Assembly (NCBI GenBank): GCA_025201365.1
Contig: JAIXMF010000009.1
Span: 620,001-684,000, forward strand
Length of the DNA stretch: 64,000 bases
Direction: 5' to 3'
Source: Syncephalis plumigaleata
Taxonomy: Eukaryota > Zoopagomycota > Zoopagomycetes > Zoopagales > Piptocephalidaceae
Part shown: positions 10,569 to 47,780 of the stretch, in pieces
Layout of the letters: every line of letters starts with the position of its first letter
How positions within the stretch are numbered: position 1 is the first letter of the stretch
Notes under the pieces: generated by a model
What the model was told of the DNA's origin: nothing
The model's input: only the letters and a program-made list of their open reading frames with translations
Databases searched by the model: none
Position numbers and translations under genes: made by a program

Positions 10569-12808
10569 TTATTTAGAGGATGGTGCAAGTACCATTTCAT
10601 GAAGAGCCTTGCCAGCTGGTACCATAGGATAGACGTGTTCAATGGGATCCACCATGGCTTCTAGCACGATAGGTCCATCATGTTGCAAGAATTCCGACAT
10701 GACTTGTGGTAGTTCGGCTTGAGTACGAATGCGCATGGCACGACATCCCATGGCTTCCGATAGTTTGACAAAGTCCGGATTACGCATGGGTGTGCCCGAG
10801 TAGCGTTCCTCGTAGAATAGATCCTGCCATTGTTTTACCATGCCTTGGAAGTCGTTATTAAGCACGAGCACCTTCACGCCAATGTTGTATTGCGAGGCGG
10901 TGGCCAATTCCATGGCTGTCATACTGAATGACGCGTCACCATCAACATCGATGACAATCTTGTCGGGTTGCGCTACTTTAGCACCAATGGCTGCTGGTAG
11001 TCCATATCCCATGGTGCCTAATCCACCGGATGTAACCATGGTACGTGGATATCGCCATCGGAAGTATTGCGCGGCCCACATTTGATGCTGACCCACACCC
11101 GTGGATAGGATCACCTTCTCCTTGCAATGCGAGAGTTGTCGGTTCATCTCAGCTAGAACGGCTTGCGGTTTAAGCTTGGCCGTGGCATCATCCTTGGCCA
11201 CCTTCGGATACGTGAACGGATACTGCTCTTTCCACTGATTTACTTGTGCGAACCAGTCACGTCGTTCCGAGTGCTCGAGCAATGGCAGTAAACGAGCAAC
11301 ATTGGTGATGACATCGCCTTCAATGGCTTCGGTGGCTTGGACAACCTTGTTAATATTCTTGGGCATGATCTCGAAATGAATAATGCCACCACGACCTTGT
11401 TCAGCAGCTAGACGAGCCTGAGGAGCGAATCCTAATAATGATATAGTTATTAATACAAATGTTATTACTATTACTAGTAGTAGTAGTAGTGAAAACACTT
11501 ACGATTGACATCGCCTGTAACTCGATCGTCAAATCGTGCACCTAGAGCGATCACTACATCGGCTTCTTGTATAGCTAGATTGGCATAGGCACTACCATGC
11601 ATGCCTAGCATGTGTAGACTACGTGGATCCTCCTCGTCGAATACACCGAGTCCCATCAATGTGGTAGTGACGGGAATGTTGGCCTGATCCACCAGTTGAC
11701 GCAACAACTGAGGACCTTGTTCAGTGGCAAGCATGCCTTGACCCACATAGAGCAATGGTCGTTTGGCGGCATTGATCAACTTGGCCGAGCGTAGGATCGA
11801 TTCGTGTACACCCTTCTCGCCAATATCTACACCGGCAGTATTGGCTGGACGAGATGGAATGGCACGAGGTGGTGGAATAGGCTTATTAAGAATGGCGGCA
11901 GTCACATTCTTTGGTAGATCAACGAGAACAGGACCAGGTCTACCGGAAGTGGCAATTTGGAATGCTTCATCGATACGACGTGGTAGATCGGCGATATCCT
12001 TGACCATGACATTCCACTATTGAATACCAGTTATAAGTAAATAAGTAAGTAAATAAATACGTAAATAGTATTTGTTGTAGTATTTACCTTGGTACAAGCT
12101 CGTGAAATACCAACAATATCGGCTTCTTGGAATGCATCAGTACCAATGGACGATGTCGGTACTTGTCCACAGAATACAACCAATGGTGTACCATCCGAGT
12201 ATGCATCCTGCATTGCTGTAACAACATTCGTTGCACCAGGACCTGATGTGACAAGTACTACACCGGGTTTACCACTAGATAAATGAAAATGATCAAAATG
12301 AGTAAATAGATACATACATGAGTAATGGTAATGATGCTACTTACGAGGCTCTTGCATAACCTTCTGCCATATGACCAGCACCTTGTTCATGTCGTGGCAG
12401 CACGAATTCGAAATGCTTCGACTGATAGATCGCATCGAATACAGGAAGAATGGCACCACCAGGATAGCCAAAGACATGCTTAACACCATGACGTAGCATC
12501 ATCTCGTGGAATATCTGACCACCGGACATGCCAATAAAACTTGAATCTTCTTGTTCGATCTTGGATCTCACCAAAGGAGTATTACCAACAGAAGCGGTAA
12601 GCTTGGATAATGGTTGTGCAGCTGCTTTACTCGATGTCGATGTCGATGTCGATGTCGACGACTTTAATGCGGTTGCCGTAGCATCACGCGAGGTTGACTG
12701 CCAACGAAGTGCGCTAGCTGCCCATACTCGACAAGGTTGCTGTTGACGAGCAGCAGCAAGTGACGACGTGTAGCGAGTGGTACGAGACAATTGACGTAGC
12801 GACAACAT
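10569..12808 (-). CDS. ILV2: Acetolactate synthase catalytic subunit
   Basis: Four exons (12808-12345, 12274-12088, 12016-11503, 11431-10569) with three introns of 70-71 nt encode about 675 residues, the usual fungal length. The start gives a mitochondrial presequence ([16 protein letters not shown], Arg/Ser-rich). The ThDP domain has [14 protein letters not shown] and the catalytic Glu in [18 protein letters not shown], the latter completed by splicing. The ThDP/Mg motif is GDASFSM with a following NN. FAD-binding and herbicide-site residues are standard ([24 protein letters not shown]). The enzyme joins two pyruvates, or pyruvate plus 2-oxobutyrate, in the first common step of valine, leucine and isoleucine synthesis in mitochondria. 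It sits head to head with ILV5, and its regulatory subunit ILV6 lies 3 kb away. The frame is intact throughout. Confidence 0.95.
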
Positions 12809-13987
12809 GATATACGAATATTGACTAGTTGAATAATGAGTAACTATTAGTGAATGAGTTGTAAAGAGATGAGCGTAGCAAGTAATAGAACAAGGCAAGA
12901 GGAAAGGCAAGAAGAAAGAAGGAAAAGACAAAGACAGCAACGGCTGTGATATTACTACTAATAATTATTGCAACAGACAAACACCAAGTATATGCAGTTA
13001 TAACACTACAACGTGCCCGGTACAAGCAGTAAAGACAAACACACCAGTGTATATATATATACTTGGATAGAGACGTGTAATGAACCAACTGGATGTGAGT
13101 GGGTGTATGCGTAAATAAAAGCCTGTGTCAGTGTGTATAAAACCGCTTGAATGATGATTAGCAAAGTCAATATTTATGGCAAACTTATCCACTGATGCCG
13201 TCGTCTGATTGGTCGGATCTTATCGCAACGTGAGTGTGACTCGGAAGAGCGCGAGACCATTCGGAGTCGAGGCATGGGCATTAATGCTACTGCTGATGAT
13301 GATGATGTTGATGATGATGGATCATCTCATTTCTACTGGTTGTGTCGACTTTTCCCTCATCCAATCAATACGTGACGAGTAAAGCGGAATGTGAACATCT
13401 ATGAGTAAAGATGGAGAGATTAATGTCATGCGCATCGCGTGATTATCATCGATATAGGAAAAGGGTCTACTGATAACGGATAAAGCTATATGAAATATGT
13501 AGATTGTATATGAAATACTAGTGTATTGAGTGATGTATGATAAGTGATCACTTGTTTGATTTAATATCATATTGCGTGTATCATCATTGTGCGAAAGAGT
13601 GAAAGGGAGAGGTGAGATGATCAGCAATCGTGGTATTCCTGTTCCCTTCATCATTGGCAAACATCTAATCATTGATTGGATCCAATCTATTTGTACCATT
13701 TATAGATGCCAACTCATCCAATCAACTACTGACTAGTATCATCGTAGTGTGAACGTGTGTGTGTGTATGTATATCATCCACGTCAATGCTATATTTTCAC
13801 ACTTACAAGTTCGGGAAAGGGTCGCGCGCGTTTGCTTTATAACCGACCGATGATACACGTCGACTAAAGTATTCGTTTCTTCTTCAACTGAACTTGTGCT
13901 TTTCTTTCCTTATTACTTTCACTCTTTCACTCTATCTATCACTCTCTCTTTCTTTATTTCTCTATACTTAGCAATACAATATACAAT
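12809..13987. promoter_or_regulatory. Shared divergent promoter of ILV2 and ILV5
   Basis: The two genes diverge from this 1.2-kb gap. It holds two copies of CTCATCCAATCAA (about 13357-13369 and 13714-13726, each with a CCAAT box). It also has an inverted CCAAT in GTCTGATTGGT (about 13203), followed by CTTATC (an inverted GATA site). A TGACTC half site for Gcn4/Cpc1-type general amino-acid control lies at 13237-13242. TTTATAA at about 13835-13841 is a plausible TATA box for ILV5, followed by a CT-rich leader. Binding by any factor is inferred from motif alone. Confidence 0.45.
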
Positions 13988-15291
13988 ATGGCTTCTCTAG
14001 CTCGTCAACTGCTGCGTACTGCTGCACCACGTACCGCGTCTACACTTACCTCGCGTGTGGTTGCGCGTGCCACTTTAACCACATTGGCGCGTCGTTCTGC
14101 CGTACAAACTATTACACGCTCCTCTCCTACCGCTGTAGGTGCTATCGGTTCGGTAAGTACGACATTATACAAGTCTATTCTATTATGTAGTATCTTTTCT
14201 AACGTATATATGTGTATATATGCATTTAGGTTCGTACCCTAAAGACACTCGACTTCGGCGGTACCAAAGAAACAGTCTACGAACGATCCGATTATCCCAG
14301 TGACAAGCTCAAGAAGATCTTCGCTAATGATACTCTTGCCGTTATCGGTTACGGTCCTCAGGGTTATGGTCAAGCACTTAATCTACGTGACAACGGTCTC
14401 AATGTCATTGTAGGTGTACGCAAGGATGGTCGCTCATGGAAGAAGGCCGTCAACGAGGGCTGGACACCCGGCAAGGACCTCTTCACCATTGAAGAGGCGT
14501 GCGATCGTGGCACTGTCGTCATGAATCTACTCTCTGATGCCTCGCAAACGGAACTATGGCCAACCATGAAGCCATACCTCACCAAGGGCAAGACCGTCTA
14601 CTTTAGTCATGGTTTCTCGGTCATCTACAACGATGACACCAAGATTGACCTACCATCCGATATCGATGTGATCCTGGTGGCCCCTAAGGGTTCCGGCTTC
14701 ACCGTGCGTCGTCTCTTCCAAGAGGGACGCGGTATCAACTCGTCCTACGCCGTCTACCAGGATGTGTCGGGACAGGCAGCGGAGCGTGCTCGCGCCCTCG
14801 GTGTCGCTATCGGTAGTGGCTACCTTTACGAGACTACCTTCAAGAAGGAGGTCTACTCTGACTTGGTCGGTGAACGTGGTGCACTCATGGGCGGCATCTA
14901 TGGCCTATTCCTTGCCCAATACGAAGTGCTACGTGCTCGTGGTCACTCTCCCTCGGAAGCCTTTAACGAGACTGTCGAGGAAGCGACCCAGTCACTCTAC
15001 CCGTTGGTCGGTGAGCGTGGCATGGACTGGATGTACTCGAACTGCTCCACCACTGCTCAACGCGGTGCACTCGACTGGTATCGTCCATTCCACGATGCGT
15101 GCAAGCCAGTGCTCGAGCGTCTCTACGATGAAGTTGAAAACGGCAACGAGACACGTCGTAGTCTAACGGAGAACTCGCGTCCTGACTATCGTGAACGCTT
15201 GGAGGCTGAACTCAAGGAGATCAACGATCATGAAATGTGGCAAGCCGGCAAGACTGTACGTTCATTGCGTCCAGAGAACAACAAGGCCTAA
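13988..15291 (+). CDS. ILV5: Ketol-acid reductoisomerase
   Basis: Exon 1 is 13988-14152 and exon 2 is 14230-15291 (intron 77 nt, phase 0), giving about 408 residues against 395 in yeast. The first about 50 residues are an Arg/Ala/Thr-rich mitochondrial presequence. The Rossmann domain shows LAVIGYGPQGYGQALNLRD (GxGxxG) and a downstream VRKDGRSW, where the Arg/Ser pair favours NADPH. The knotted C-terminal domain has GERGALMGGIYGLFLAQYE and the Mg-binding Glu/Asp residues. The enzyme isomerises and reduces acetolactate or acetohydroxybutyrate in the second step of branched-chain synthesis. Yeast Ilv5 also packages mitochondrial DNA. The frame is fully intact. Confidence 0.95.
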
Positions 15292-15686
15292 ATGATCTAC
15301 ATATGATATAAGCGCACATATAGTTTCCCCCTCTTCATTTCTTGCCAAAATTGATCGTAAATAAATCAGTAGTTTTATAATACTATTATGTTATAAATTG
15401 CCTGAATAGTGTTAGAAGTAGTAGTAAAAACAGTCTGTCATGATATGGACAGGCATTTTCCTTCATCAGTACATCAGAGATCAAAGAAAGATGGATGGAT
15501 CAATGTTGTATCTGATCTCTAATTAATACGGATCAATGATGTACACGCCACATATTAAATAAAATGAAGCGGAAATGAACACACACGTCCGACCTTTGCT
15601 CGCATTCCTTCTTCTCATCTCTCTATTTCTCCACGTCTGCTTCCCTTCTGCTACTTGCTGTTACTGCTGCTTTGTTAATATACGGT
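15292..15686. promoter_or_regulatory. ILV5 3' end and ILV6 promoter
   Basis: This short tandem gap contains AATAAA-like signals for ILV5 (near 15359 and 15558) and a CT-rich leader ahead of the ILV6 ATG. An 8-bp AGAGATCA/TGATCTCT inverted repeat occurs at about 15476 and 15513. No gene was seen. Confidence 0.4.
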
Positions 15687-16906
15687 ATGCTTGCCTCTAG
15701 AACGTCAAGTGCGGTTACGCGTCTGGCGTCTAGTTCACGCATTATTCAGGTAAGCAACACGCGTTTATACGCAAACACACCTTATATACGTGTATTTACC
15801 GTTGAATAACAATAATAGCGTGGTGTACTGTCGTCCCTCGGCCGTATCTCGACTGACTCGACCACTTTAACAAGTGTTAATAACAGTAATACGCAATGCC
15901 GTTGGACCTCGTCGGGTCCGTCTACCTCTGCCATTAACTTTAAGCTACAGCGTCATCGTCGTCATTTCCCGCCTTTACCAACGCCACCTACACCAACACC
16001 CGAGGAAGCAGTGACCAATATTCTCTATAATACACCAGAGACCACATCACAACCATCGCAGCGTCGTGTGCTTAGTTGTTTGGTTCAAGACGAGCCAGGT
16101 GTACTTAGTCGTGTGAGTGGTATTCTAGCTGGTCGCGGGTTCAACATCGAAAGTCTAGTCGTGTCGCGTACCGAAGTACGTGATCTAAGTCGTATGACAA
16201 TTATCGTCAAGGGACAAGAGTCGGTGGTGGAACAGGCTAGACGACAATTGGAAGACTTGGTAAGCATGTGCCTATCATACAATAGTAACCGTAGTAACAA
16301 TAGTGTAATATCAGGTACCAGTATGGGCAGTCATCGATTATACTGGAACACGTCTAGTTGAACGGGAACTATTATTGATCAAGGTGTCAACATTGGGTGC
16401 AGCACAAGAGATGGTACGCCAAAGATTGATGCAAGAAAAAGAAGGCCATGAATTAAGTGAAGAAGTAAGCAACACACACACGTATATATACTACAACATT
16501 GTATTAACTGTATTGATTAGGAACAAGCCAATATGCCAGATCCCACTAGTATGCTACAAGAAACGCAATTCAATCTACGTGGTCTCTCCGAGTTGACAAG
16601 TCTATTCCGTGGTCGTGTAGTCGATGTTAGCTCTGGCTCGGTCGTTATCGAGTTGTGTGCCAAACCAAATCGTATCGATGCTTTTGTAAACTTGTACAGC
16701 CATTTGGTATATTAGAATCTACTCGTAGTGGTAAGTATATTCCAGTGTCATTATTATTAGCTTATAACTTATTCATTCATTCATTCATTCATATCAGGTG
16801 CTATGGCAATGCCGCGTGCACCCATTCTAGGACAAGAGGCGATGATGCTGATGCGGCCATCGATGATACACCAAAGGTTGATGCTACTATGCTTCCACCA
16901 GGATAA
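15687..16906 (+). CDS. ILV6: Acetolactate synthase regulatory subunit
   Basis: There are five exons: 15687-15749, 15819-16259, 16315-16464, 16521-16730 and 16798-16906. A Ser/Arg-rich presequence is followed by an ACT domain (RRVLSCLVQDEPGVLSRVSG, then GRGFNIESLVV) and the C-terminal ALS_ss domain (NLRGLSELTSLFRGRVVDVS, PFGILESTRSG). The subunit activates ILV2 and confers valine feedback inhibition, relieved by ATP in fungi. Two frame steps occur. In exon 4, near 16692, the frame leaves the conserved path just before QPFGILESTRSG. In exon 5, near 16843, it leaves before an acidic tail (DDADAAIDDTPK). Each is explained by one missing base (a G in a GG pair for the first), so they look like consensus errors. 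It shares a cluster with its catalytic partner. Confidence 0.88.
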
Positions 16907-17598
16907 TAATAATCATTATTATTACTATTATACTAGTGCTTTCTACATGAATAAACTACCATTTTATGTATTGAACTACTAGAAGCAGGCTAATTGCAAT
17001 GTATGTGTCGTGATTATGGATACTGATGATGATGATGGAGATGTGAGAGTGGGAATGAGATCGATAGGTTGGCTTTGTCTGATTGGTTCTTATCAATCTC
17101 ATCTATGCATCTGACATCACTTTTGCAAACAATATCACCACTCAGCATCAGCATCAGCATCATCAGCATCATCATCTGCAATCTTGTTCCCATCATCATC
17201 ATAGCGGATATATAAAGCGTGTACACCTGCGTATTACCAGCCAGTAGACACTCTTTTCCATATTCACTTGTTCGTTTGTCCACACACACACACACACACA
17301 CACACCACACGTGTACACGTACGCATATCGTGGTGTATATTCGTGCTTATTCAGATAGTTTCCCTGGGGAAGTTGCGCCGTATTCACTTGTTATTTTATT
17401 GAGTATAATATCCGTTGAACTCGCACGGTATCAGCTGTTCACTCACCACGTTTAATTGAAAAGGAAGCCTCCTACTTCTACTACTTACGTGTTGTTCTAT
17501 TCCCTATCCACTACTACTGCTGCTGCTGTTACTTCTTACTCTCTCTTCTCTTCTCTATACGTACATACATATATACATCAATATATATATATATCAAT
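16907..17598. promoter_or_regulatory. ILV6-LEU2 intergenic promoter region
   Basis: GTCTGATTGGT followed by TCTTATC (about 17078-17095) closely repeats the pair of sites found upstream of ILV2 (inverted CCAAT plus inverted GATA). A (CA)n tract runs at about 17281-17304, and a CT-rich leader precedes the LEU2 ATG. GATGAT and CATCAG simple repeats lie near 17025 and 17142-17175. No gene was seen. Confidence 0.4.
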
Positions 17599-18862
<1,264 letters not shown>

Positions 18863-18885
18863 AACGTCCATCCGGCCGTCGTCCA

Positions 18886-21052
18886 ATGACCCTGTGCGAG
18901 AAGATCATCTGTCATGGTGCTATCGGATTGGAGGCACCGGGACAAGTGCAGCCAGGCGACATGGTTTGCGTTAGCGTCGACTGGACACTTGCCAGCGAGT
19001 TGACCTGGAAGGGAATGGAGAAGACGTACGATCAAATGGACCGACCCAAGATTCGTCGTAATGATCGTTTCTGGCTTGCCATCGATCACACGGTCGATCC
19101 ACGTATCAATGACCAGCCGAAGCCGCAAGAGTTGATCAAGGCCAGCAAGACATTCGCCGAAGAGGCGGAACTAGTTGACTTTTACGAGCCCAACTACACC
19201 ATTCTACACACGGAGTTCTGTCGTGAACGAGCGCAACCCGGCATGATTGTCATTGGCGCTGACTCGCACAGTTGTTCAGCGGGTAATGTTGGTGCTTTCG
19301 CCGTTGGTCTAGGCGCTGCCGACGTGGTCATGCCATTGGTCACCGGTGAGACTTGGTTCAAAGTACCGGAAACTGTAGAAATTCGGTAAGGATAATTATA
19401 ATTTATTTATTTATTGGTTATTGTTAACATTATTTTTATTGTATTAGATTTGTTGGTCGTCCACCATTCGGTATCGGTGGTAAGGACACGATTCTCTACG
19501 TGTTGGGTGAATTGAAACGTAACACGTGGCGTTTGAACGTGCCGTCGAGTTCACCGGTTCGGGATTGCGCCATTTGAGTTGCGATGCACGCTTTGCCATC
19601 TCCAATATGGCAACCGAGTTTGGCGGTATTGCCGGTGTATTCGAGGCTGACGAGGTGACCGCCGCTTACATCGCTAAACGTAAGGATCCACAGCACAAGA
19701 ATAGCGCGCTCTACTTCCGTGCCGATCCCGATGCCGCGTATGCCGAATCGCATGTCATCGATCTTAGCAAGGTTGACTCGTTGGTTGCCCTTTACCCATC
19801 TCCCGATAACGTTGTACCCGTGGATGAAGTCGCAGGAATGCAATTGGATGGTTGTTTCATTGGTGCTTGCACCACAGCCGAGGAAGATCTCATCCTGGCG
19901 GCCCTCATCCTCGAGGCAGGTCTAGCACGCGGTTGGGTGCCATCCGTCAATGGTAAACGTAAGGTGACACCAGGCTCGGTACCGATTATCGCGAAATTGC
20001 GTCGTCTCGGTCTACTTGAGGTGTACGAGAAGTGTGGCTTCGAGGTTGGTGCACCCGGCTGCTCTTACTGTATCGCCGTGGCAGCCGACAAAGCCGGTGA
20101 AGGTGAGGTCTGGCTTAGCTCGCAGAATCGCAACTTCAAGAACCGTATGGGCAAGGGATCGATCGGTAATTTGGCGAGTGCCGCCACCGTGGCAGCCAGT
20201 AGTTTCGAGATGAAGGTGCGCAATCCACGTGAATTGCTTAACGCCATCGATCAGACACGCTATCAACGCATGCTCGAGATCTGGATGGAGAAGGGAGACC
20301 CCATTGTCATCTCTGAGCCTAATCCAGTATTGGCCAATTCGACAGACGCAGCTGCCACTACCACCACCACTGCTGCTGCTGATGTCCCCGCCTTACCTAA
20401 ATTCGAGACAACCATCACGGGCAAGGTACAACGTTTCGATGATCATGTCGACACTGATGCGATTATTCCGGCTGAATTCATGCCTGGTGTCAGTGACGAG
20501 GATCTCGGCACACACGCATTCCAGTATTTCCGACCCGAATTTATTCCACGTATTGCGGAGGGTCGTAACATTATTGTGGCAGGCGTAGGATTCGGTTCGG
20601 GTTCATCTCGTGAAGAAGCACCGCGCGCTCTACGTGGAGCAGGCATTCAAGCGGTCATCGCTCGATCATACGCGTTCATCTATGGTCGTAATCAGCCTAT
20701 GATGTCGCTACTCGGTATCACGATTAATGATGATCGTTTCTACGAGTTGGCTCAAGAAGGTGCCGACATTGTAATCGATGTCAAGGAGCGTGTTGTCGAG
20801 TGTGGCGGTGAACGATTCGGCTTCGGTCTCAGTCTAATGGAGGAACGTCTAATGGCCGGTGGCGGTGTAACCGAAATGTACAAACGCTACGGCGGTCGTC
20901 TATTCCGCGTGGCAATGCAAGATGATGACACGGCTGCCGCTACTCAAGGCAAGGGCGGTTGTGGTAGCGGCGATGCTGCCTCTACATCAATTACAGCGAC
21001 AACAGGTGCAGCCTGCCAAGATAGCCAACAACAAGAACAACTGGCATGGTAG
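18886..21052 (+). CDS. LEU1: Single-chain 3-isopropylmalate dehydratase-like aconitase-family protein
   Basis: Exon 1 runs to 19385 and exon 2 is 19448-21052, separated by a 62-nt intron. The aconitase core shows VIGADSHSCSAGNVGAFAVG and the 4Fe-4S ligands, one Cys in FIGACTTAEEDL and two in GAPGCSYCIAVA. A Thr/Ala-rich linker at about 20341-20390 leads to the swivel domain with RFDDHVDTDAIIPAEFM and GVGFGSGSSREEAPRALRG. Large and small subunits are thus fused, as in fungal LEU1. However, the N-terminus (TLCEKIICHGAIG) and several motifs differ from classic fungal LEU1, so it may be a distinct subfamily. Substrate is inferred from its LEU2 partner and cluster. One frame step near 19523 fits a single missing base (ACC or GG). 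It most likely forms the C-terminal part of a fusion with LEU2. Confidence 0.8.
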
Positions 21053-45951: not shown

Positions 45952-47328
45952 TTAGGCGGTAGCTTTGATGGTGGCAGTGACCGATTTAGCAGCAATACGC
46001 TGTGGCACCTCGACACCCGACCAGATGTTGATACCGTCGCGTTTCAATTTTTCAGCACGAACAGTGGCTAAAAAGTCGCCAAACAAGTACTCAGTATCCA
46101 TGGGTCCACCCTTAGCCTCCGGGTGGAATTGTACCGAGCTGAATAGACCATTCTCATGCCAGATGCCCTCATTGCTGCCGTCGTTAGCATTGACAAAGTA
46201 ACGATGCCAGCCTGATGGCATCTTCTCGTCGCATAAGGCGTAGCCATGATTCTGCGACGTGATCACACATCGACCATCGCGTGTATTCACTACCGGTTGA
46301 TTGTGGCCACGATTACCGAATGGCAACTTCTTCACGGGTAGACCGGCCGCCAAACCCAACAATTGATTACCCATGCAGATGCCGAAGATAGGACGTTGAT
46401 AAGTCGCCATGGTCACTTGTAGATTGGCAATGGCTTCCGTGGCCTTTTCCGGATTACCTGGACCGTTGGAGATAAAGAGACCGTCGTACTGTTGAGCAAC
46501 CTGGTTAAAGTCGTAATTCCATGGTAGTACGGTGACGCACGCACCACGTTTCACCAACGAGCGAATGATGTTATGCTTGACACCACAGTCAAGGAGGGCG
46601 ATCTTGACGTCACCTTGTGAATTGTAGACGACAGGCTCTTTGACGGATACCTTCGCCACCAAGTTGTCGGCATTCGGATCGGTCCACTTGATCTGTTCGG
46701 GTGCACCGTTGACATCGGTCTCACCCACCGCCAATTGACCGAGGGTCGAGCCTTGATCACGTAGCAGATGAACGAGTGCACGGGTGTCGACACCTGTGAT
46801 GGCGGGCACGTCATTACGCGCACACCAGCTGGCCAACGATTCGACGGCATTCCAGTGCGAGTAACGCTGAGCGTAGTCACCCACCACAATACCGCTTACT
46901 TGTACGTGCTCGGATTCAAAGTGTTTCAACAGACCGAATGAATCACGAGTCATACCGGGCACACCGTAGTTACCCACTAGTGGTTGAGTAAATACAAGGA
47001 TCTGACCACTATAGGATGGATCGGTCATCGACTCGGGATAGCCGACGAGTGACGTGGTGAACACGGCTTCACCGCTCACGGTACGAGCAGCACCGAACGA
47101 CTGACCATGGAATACTTGGCCTGTCTTCAACTGGAGTGCAGCGGGTATATTCTGACCGGCAGTCTCATTGTCAGGATTACCCAATTGTTTACCATGAAGC
47201 GGTGTATCAGTAATGGTGGCAAGTCCACGACGGATGGTAGATGCAACGATGCTGTTGTTGCTACCGGCGGTGGCACGGGTTAATCGCAAAGCGTTAGCGA
47301 ATAGAGCGGATTTGTTAAGCATCAACAT
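45952..47328 (-). CDS. CPA1: Arginine-specific carbamoyl-phosphate synthase, small (glutaminase) subunit
   Basis: The single uninterrupted exon encodes 458 residues. A presequence (MLMLNKSALFANALRLTRAT) predicts mitochondrial import, as for Neurospora ARG-2. The N-terminal CPSase small domain shows GQVFHGQSFGA and TSLVGYPESMTDPSY. The class I glutamine amidotransferase domain has the nucleophile Cys in IFGICMGNQLLGLAAG and the His-x-Glu pair in SVQFHPEAKGG. The subunit splits glutamine and passes ammonia to the large subunit, giving carbamoyl phosphate for arginine. The canonical GICLGHQ reads GICMGNQ here. No other ATG lies between this start and the upstream arginine attenuator uORF about 250 nt before it. 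Confidence 0.93.
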   Translation of the reverse strand: MLMLNKSALFANALRLTRATAGSNNSIVASTIRRGLATITDTPLHGKQLGNPDNETAGQNIPAALQLKTGQVFHGQSFGAARTVSGEAVFTTSLVGYPESMTDPSYSGQILVFTQPLVGNYGVPGMTRDSFGLLKHFESEHVQVSGIVVGDYAQRYSHWNAVESLASWCARNDVPAITGVDTRALVHLLRDQGSTLGQLAVGETDVNGAPEQIKWTDPNADNLVAKVSVKEPVVYNSQGDVKIALLDCGVKHNIIRSLVKRGACVTVLPWNYDFNQVAQQYDGLFISNGPGNPEKATEAIANLQVTMATYQRPIFGICMGNQLLGLAAGLPVKKLPFGNRGHNQPVVNTRDGRCVITSQNHGYALCDEKMPSGWHRYFVNANDGSNEGIWHENGLFSSVQFHPEAKGGPMDTEYLFGDFLATVRAEKLKRDGINIWSGVEVPQRIAAKSVTATIKATA

Positions 47329-47577
47329 GATGTATTGAGGATTTTTGAGAGTAGTTTTGTTTGCTTGAAAATGTTAAAGAGAGAGAGAGAGAGAGAGAGA
47401 AGATACGAGTTCAGATAAATTCTTTTTTGTAACACAACCCAATGAAGTGTGTCGCGCGTTAAACGGGGTGGTAATAGTAAAGGTGAAGGTTAAGAGAAGA
47501 GGTAAAGTAAACGAGACGTATATTGCGAGAGTTCAGAAGAGTAATTGTTGGTTTATCGAATATCGATTACCAAAAGC

Positions 47578-47780
47578 TTAACAAGAAGGGCCGAAAGAGA
47601 AACCGGTAGCCTTCCAGACTGTATATACGATAACATAACATAACAATATATCGTGTATAGTTTGTTAGTAGTGAATACGTGATAGATATAGATATAGATA
47701 CATAGTACTAGTCAAATGGCTAACTTACTGTGATCAGAAATGTAGTCAGACGAGTTCTTTTCTTGCGCGTGAGAGTACAT
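47578..47780 (-). promoter_or_regulatory. Arginine attenuator peptide (AAP) uORF, split by an intron
   Basis: In the CPA1 leader, an ATG at 47780 opens MYSHAQEKNSSDYISDH. A GTAAGT donor follows at 47728, one base into the next codon. A CAG acceptor ends at 47619, and splicing yields I-W-K-A-T-G-F-S-F-G-P-S-C then TAA at 47578: 30 codons in all. The core S-S-D-Y-I-S-D-H-I-W-K matches the AAPs of yeast CPA1 (CQDYISDHIWK) and Neurospora arg-2 (SQDYLSDHLW), with the essential Asp at codon 12 as in Neurospora. The peptide stalls ribosomes when arginine is high, lowering CPA1 translation. The start context (CGCATGT) is weak, which suits leaky scanning. Unspliced RNA would give a 22-codon ORF ending SKLAI, without the Ile-Trp. 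Confidence 0.85.

Follow-up and report, generated by a model that had tools for sequence, protein, structure and literature searches.

The CPA1 gene of Syncephalis plumigaleata, encoding the small subunit of carbamoyl-phosphate synthase, is preceded by an upstream open reading frame (uORF) that very probably specifies a genuine arginine attenuator peptide (AAP). The conserved core of this peptide is split by a predicted intron that would be removed constitutively, and the product is predicted to stall ribosomes at high arginine and to repress CPA1. Among eukaryotic nascent-peptide sensors, the AAP is a textbook case. S. plumigaleata is a member of the Zoopagales (Zoopagomycota) and lies outside the Dikarya. 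The features discussed here (Table 1) belong to one stretch of 64,000 nucleotides of genomic DNA, the whole of which is referred to as the window.

Table 1. Features of the CPA1 locus, with positions numbered along the window
Feature	Position	Strand	Description
AAP uORF exon 1	47729..47780	minus	codons 1-17 (MYSHAQEKNSSDYISDH) and the first base of codon 18; ATG context TTGCGC-ATG
Predicted phase-1 intron in codon 18	47619..47728	minus	110 nt; donor ACA/GTAAGT, TACTAAC, acceptor TACAG; from sequence only
AAP uORF exon 2	47578..47618	minus	rest of Ile18, then WKATGFSFGPSC and TAA
Inter-ORF leader	47329..47577	minus	249 bases, without ATG
CPA1/arg-2 type carbamoyl-phosphate synthase small subunit	45952..47328	minus	458 aa, one uninterrupted ORF; Pfam CPSase_sm_chain and GATase

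Read on the minus strand, the uORF opens with the ATG at 47780 and its TAA is completed at 47578, and the next ORF is CPA1, starting at 47328. With the predicted 110-nt intron taken out, the product is MYSHAQEKNSSDYISDHIWKATGFSFGPSC-stop, a peptide of 30 amino acids with Asp at codon 12, compared with 24-25 codons in known AAP uORFs, and the stop codon lies 249 bases upstream of CPA1. The unspliced frame reads MYSHAQEKNSSDYISDHSKLAI-stop and closes after 22 codons (...SDHSKLAI-stop); the core D-Y-[IL]-S-D-H-[IL]-W with its critical Asp is present in the spliced reading only. An earlier note on this DNA had proposed that splicing at 47728/47619 joins DYISDH to IWK with Asp at codon 12, and that the unspliced uORF ends SKLAI and lacks the Ile-Trp; coordinates, frame and splice sites were re-derived from the sequence and agree with both statements. 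Three ATGs occur between the uORF ATG and that of CPA1 and all are intronic (47728-47619), and in the spliced leader, from the uORF ATG onward, the next ATG is the CPA1 start. A further 16 ATGs are found upstream of the uORF, at 48191-47974, and would be relevant if transcribed.

The GTAAGT donor begins at 47728, directly after the first nucleotide of codon 18, and the first AG past the TACTAAC branch motif, the A of which lies 46 nt from the 3' end of the intron, ends at 47619. At 9.14 bits, this donor is the highest scoring of the 1-kb leader and stands above five of nine control introns, whose donors range from 4.22 to 10.55 bits when scored leave-one-out. The controls were chosen by eye in neighbouring amino-acid-biosynthesis genes, and all of them, the one in ILV5 included, were checked for a coding sequence that runs on through the junction. 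The uORF intron is longer than any of these controls (110 nt versus 56-77 nt), none of which contains TACTAAC. Four AG acceptors are available 40-330 nt downstream of the donor, and the one at 47619 is both the only YAG and the only one to restore Ile-Trp. Taken alone, a branch motif so spaced is no proof of an intron, because the long-spaced pattern GTAAGT-N40-70-TACTAAC-N25-55-CAG is not enriched genome-wide (46 matches versus 68 for the backward control). With GT-AG ends, a branch motif and a sensible product upon removal, the element has the features of an ordinary spliceosomal intron, the splicing of which would assemble the two halves of the AAP core.

Whether splicing itself could act as a switch deserves consideration, with the spliced fraction of the leader varying with conditions and deciding whether the CPA1 mRNA senses arginine. 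The intron is indeed the longest of the ten examined and sits between His17 and Trp19, such that its retention loses the sensing residues and gains three ATGs; any intron within this core would, however, carry the same logical consequence. The RNA fold of the uORF region is unremarkable (z = +1.04, with 166 of 200 shuffles folding equally well or better) and, together with the strong donor, the TACTAAC motif and the single usable YAG acceptor, it points to constitutive removal and makes such a switch unlikely. Of the interpretation offered in the earlier note, the identity of the AAP, the intron and the placement outside Dikarya stand, all on sequence grounds, while the control of arginine sensing by regulated splicing finds no positive sign in these same features.

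The identity of the peptide was examined by a search of 177,635 distinct PDB sequences, in which the best match of the spliced peptide is the Neurospora crassa AAP (PDB 2XL1, E=0.029), with residues 9-22 aligning on residues 9-22 and 8 of the 14 being identical. The remaining rows are three matches at E=1.4, all to one unrelated phosphatase, and a search of the same sequences with the unspliced peptide retrieves nothing at E<=10. The restriction of the alignment to residues 9-22 and a uORF tail longer than that of N. crassa could also be expected of a relic, in which the uORF was inherited and the arginine response was lost in this lineage, leaving a mild constitutive uORF. This seems very unlikely since the core, the codon-12 register and the splice signals are all intact, where decay would be expected in the absence of selection.

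The likeness to the N. crassa peptide was furthermore weighed against chance by scoring all ATG-initiated peptides of the 1-kb leader, both unspliced and in one-intron versions (GTRNGY donor, YAG acceptor, 50-200 nt), against residues 9-22 of the N. crassa AAP in ungapped BLOSUM62 comparisons. The observed score of 55 is reached by none of 1,000 dinucleotide shuffles of the leader (mean 9.2, maximum 34). Among 252 half-overlapping 1-kb tiles covering both strands of the window, a score of 55 is confined to the two that contain this uORF, and the best of the others scores 26. While the peptide is short, these figures and its location before CPA1 leave practically no room for a chance resemblance combined with a spurious splice.

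A degenerate DNA pattern for contiguous DYxSDH has three matches in the 32.6-Mb genome, one of them being the present site; as for the other two, L005 contains an in-frame TGA and L006 is an unrelated stretch, by eye antisense to an acetyl-CoA-carboxylase-like gene. The AAP motif is found in none of 240 proteins (the best 120 matches of the CPA1 search and the best 120 of the LEU2-LEU1 search), and a search of annotated CPA1-sized proteins for the peptide gave no candidate with three words in common. ARAGORN, run with bacterial settings, and Rfam at gathering scores returned nothing on the window.

The CPA1 ORF starts in the context TACATC-ATG, and its N-terminus looks like a mitochondrial presequence. 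An A is found at -3 of CPA1 as well as of ILV2, ILV5 and LEU2, whereas the uORF has a C, hence no purine, at this position, a difference that fits leaky scanning. CPA1-like stretches elsewhere in the genome are confined to one place, where three pieces on contig C340 share 52-63% identity; these presumably belong to the enzyme of pyrimidine synthesis, and an arginine-specific role for the CPA1 considered here would be in keeping with this. The protein is 87% identical to one from Syncephalis fuscata, and Dikarya are absent from the named organisms among the best 120 of 7,999 scored matches, a good part of these 120 carrying no name. Scans of other contigs gave a single viral locus (50% identity) and at least 586 prokaryotic relatives, the best 80 of which all carry bacterial titles; no CPA1 leader of a fungus was among the loci obtained. 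These 80 (L009-L088) are mostly labelled Bacteroidota and are 49-54% identical.

Other genes of the window can be mentioned here. Branched-chain amino-acid genes occupy about 10.5 kb (10569-21052), with ILV2 on the minus strand, ILV5/KARI, an ILV6-like ACT-domain subunit, and LEU2 followed by LEU1, these names being given partly by reading. LEU2 and LEU1 (17600-21052) read as one fused protein. This fusion is not a novelty, since among the matches listed its three Pfam domains occur at similar length in many early-diverging fungi, as well as in some Fusarium and other Ascomycota. Four frame breaks interrupt its reading, at about 18116, 18494, 18850 and 19527 (positions by eye). The S. plumigaleata protein P0121 matches the joined pieces at 94% over the whole query, with differences located largely, by eye, at the frame breaks; its gene model skips these breaks, pointing to either decay of the gene or errors in the assembly. 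In addition, the translation of a long ORF on the minus strand (250-2277) looks, by reading, like many Sel1-like repeats.

The function of known AAPs, their requirement for the Asp and the involvement of nonsense-mediated decay are described in PMC7969011, PMC7049704, PMC11550727 and PMC8370653. By analogy, the following sequence of events may be proposed for S. plumigaleata. The intron would be removed constitutively, and the weak start of the uORF would often be bypassed by scanning ribosomes, which would then translate CPA1. At high arginine, ribosomes having translated the uORF would be arrested by the newly made core within their exit tunnel, blocking scanning and exposing the mRNA to nonsense-mediated decay, and CPA1 would consequently fall. 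An RNA that escapes splicing would carry a 22-codon uORF devoid of Ile18-Trp19 along with three extra ATGs, and is expected to be both CPA1-poor and arginine-blind.

The site of the stall may differ from that of known AAPs. Trp19, a residue important in AAPs, is followed by 11 residues here versus 5 in the 24-residue N. crassa peptide; should the distance from the core to the peptidyl transferase centre set stalling, the stall would be expected near codon 24-25, before the stop codon is reached, in an elongating ribosome whose P site holds roughly codon 24. Known AAP stalls sit at the uORF stop codon (PMC7969011, PMC11550727), which would favour codon 30, the stall site of the earlier note.

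Examples of fungal AAPs in the literature come, as far as the accessible text goes, from Dikarya (N. crassa, S. cerevisiae and Cryptococcus; PMC7969011, PMC7049704, PMC11550727). Our literature search, sparse for subscription papers, found no AAP reported for a fungus outside Dikarya and no intron in an AAP uORF, and it found nothing on uORFs in Syncephalis. The AAP is thus a known kind of uORF for which no earlier report from the phylum Zoopagomycota turned up in the literature searched. The earlier note had suggested that the AAP extends to a lineage distant from Dikarya, and this view gains from the host being in Zoopagomycota and from the match of the spliced peptide to the N. crassa AAP. 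If an AAP clearly precedes CPA1 in Zoopagomycota, the origin of this device would shift to a far more ancient ancestor among the fungi. The finding also has a practical side: where an intron interrupts the AAP core, a search that leaves the leader unspliced can overlook the peptide, and the apparent absence of AAPs elsewhere may therefore be an artefact. Furthermore, the longer tail makes this a natural AAP variant with which stalling during elongation could be told apart from stalling at termination. A far-reaching and rather doubtful extension would be that the AAP-CPA1 switch predates the split between Zoopagomycota and the line of Dikarya and that the Syncephalis core, assembled only by splicing, constitutes a splicing-licensed nascent-peptide sensor, with intron retention leading to a repressed and arginine-blind CPA1 mRNA.

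Several known systems can be compared with the Syncephalis peptide. The AAP of S. cerevisiae CPA1 has an identical DYISDHIWK, is 25 aa long, is intronless and stalls at the stop codon. AAPs act by arginine-dependent stalling within the uORF, and in yeast CPA1 the response is lost with Asp13Asn (PMC7969011). Initiation at the yeast uORF is inefficient according to the same source, in line with the C at -3 of the Syncephalis uORF. In Cryptococcus, a basidiomycete, the CPA1 homologue CND01050 likewise possesses an AAP uORF; ribosomes occupy it strongly, and the mRNA increases upon upf1 deletion and is sensitive to nonsense-mediated decay (PMC7049704). The arginine-responsive uORF of Toxoplasma TgApiAT1 encodes an AAP-like peptide with a critical Asp and, unlike the Syncephalis uORF located before CPA1, precedes a transporter gene; its authors consider convergent evolution with the AAP if the function is shared (PMC8370653). 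With the 24-aa AAP of N. crassa arg-2 (2XL1), the Syncephalis peptide shares the DY[IL]SDH[IL]W core in the same register, with Asp at residue 12, and the location in the leader of the orthologous gene for the small subunit of carbamoyl-phosphate synthase (PMC7969011, PMC11550727). It differs from it by a length of 30 aa with a tail six residues longer, by Ile in place of Leu at positions 14 and 18 and Lys in place of Arg at position 20, and by the intron that splits its core in codon 18.
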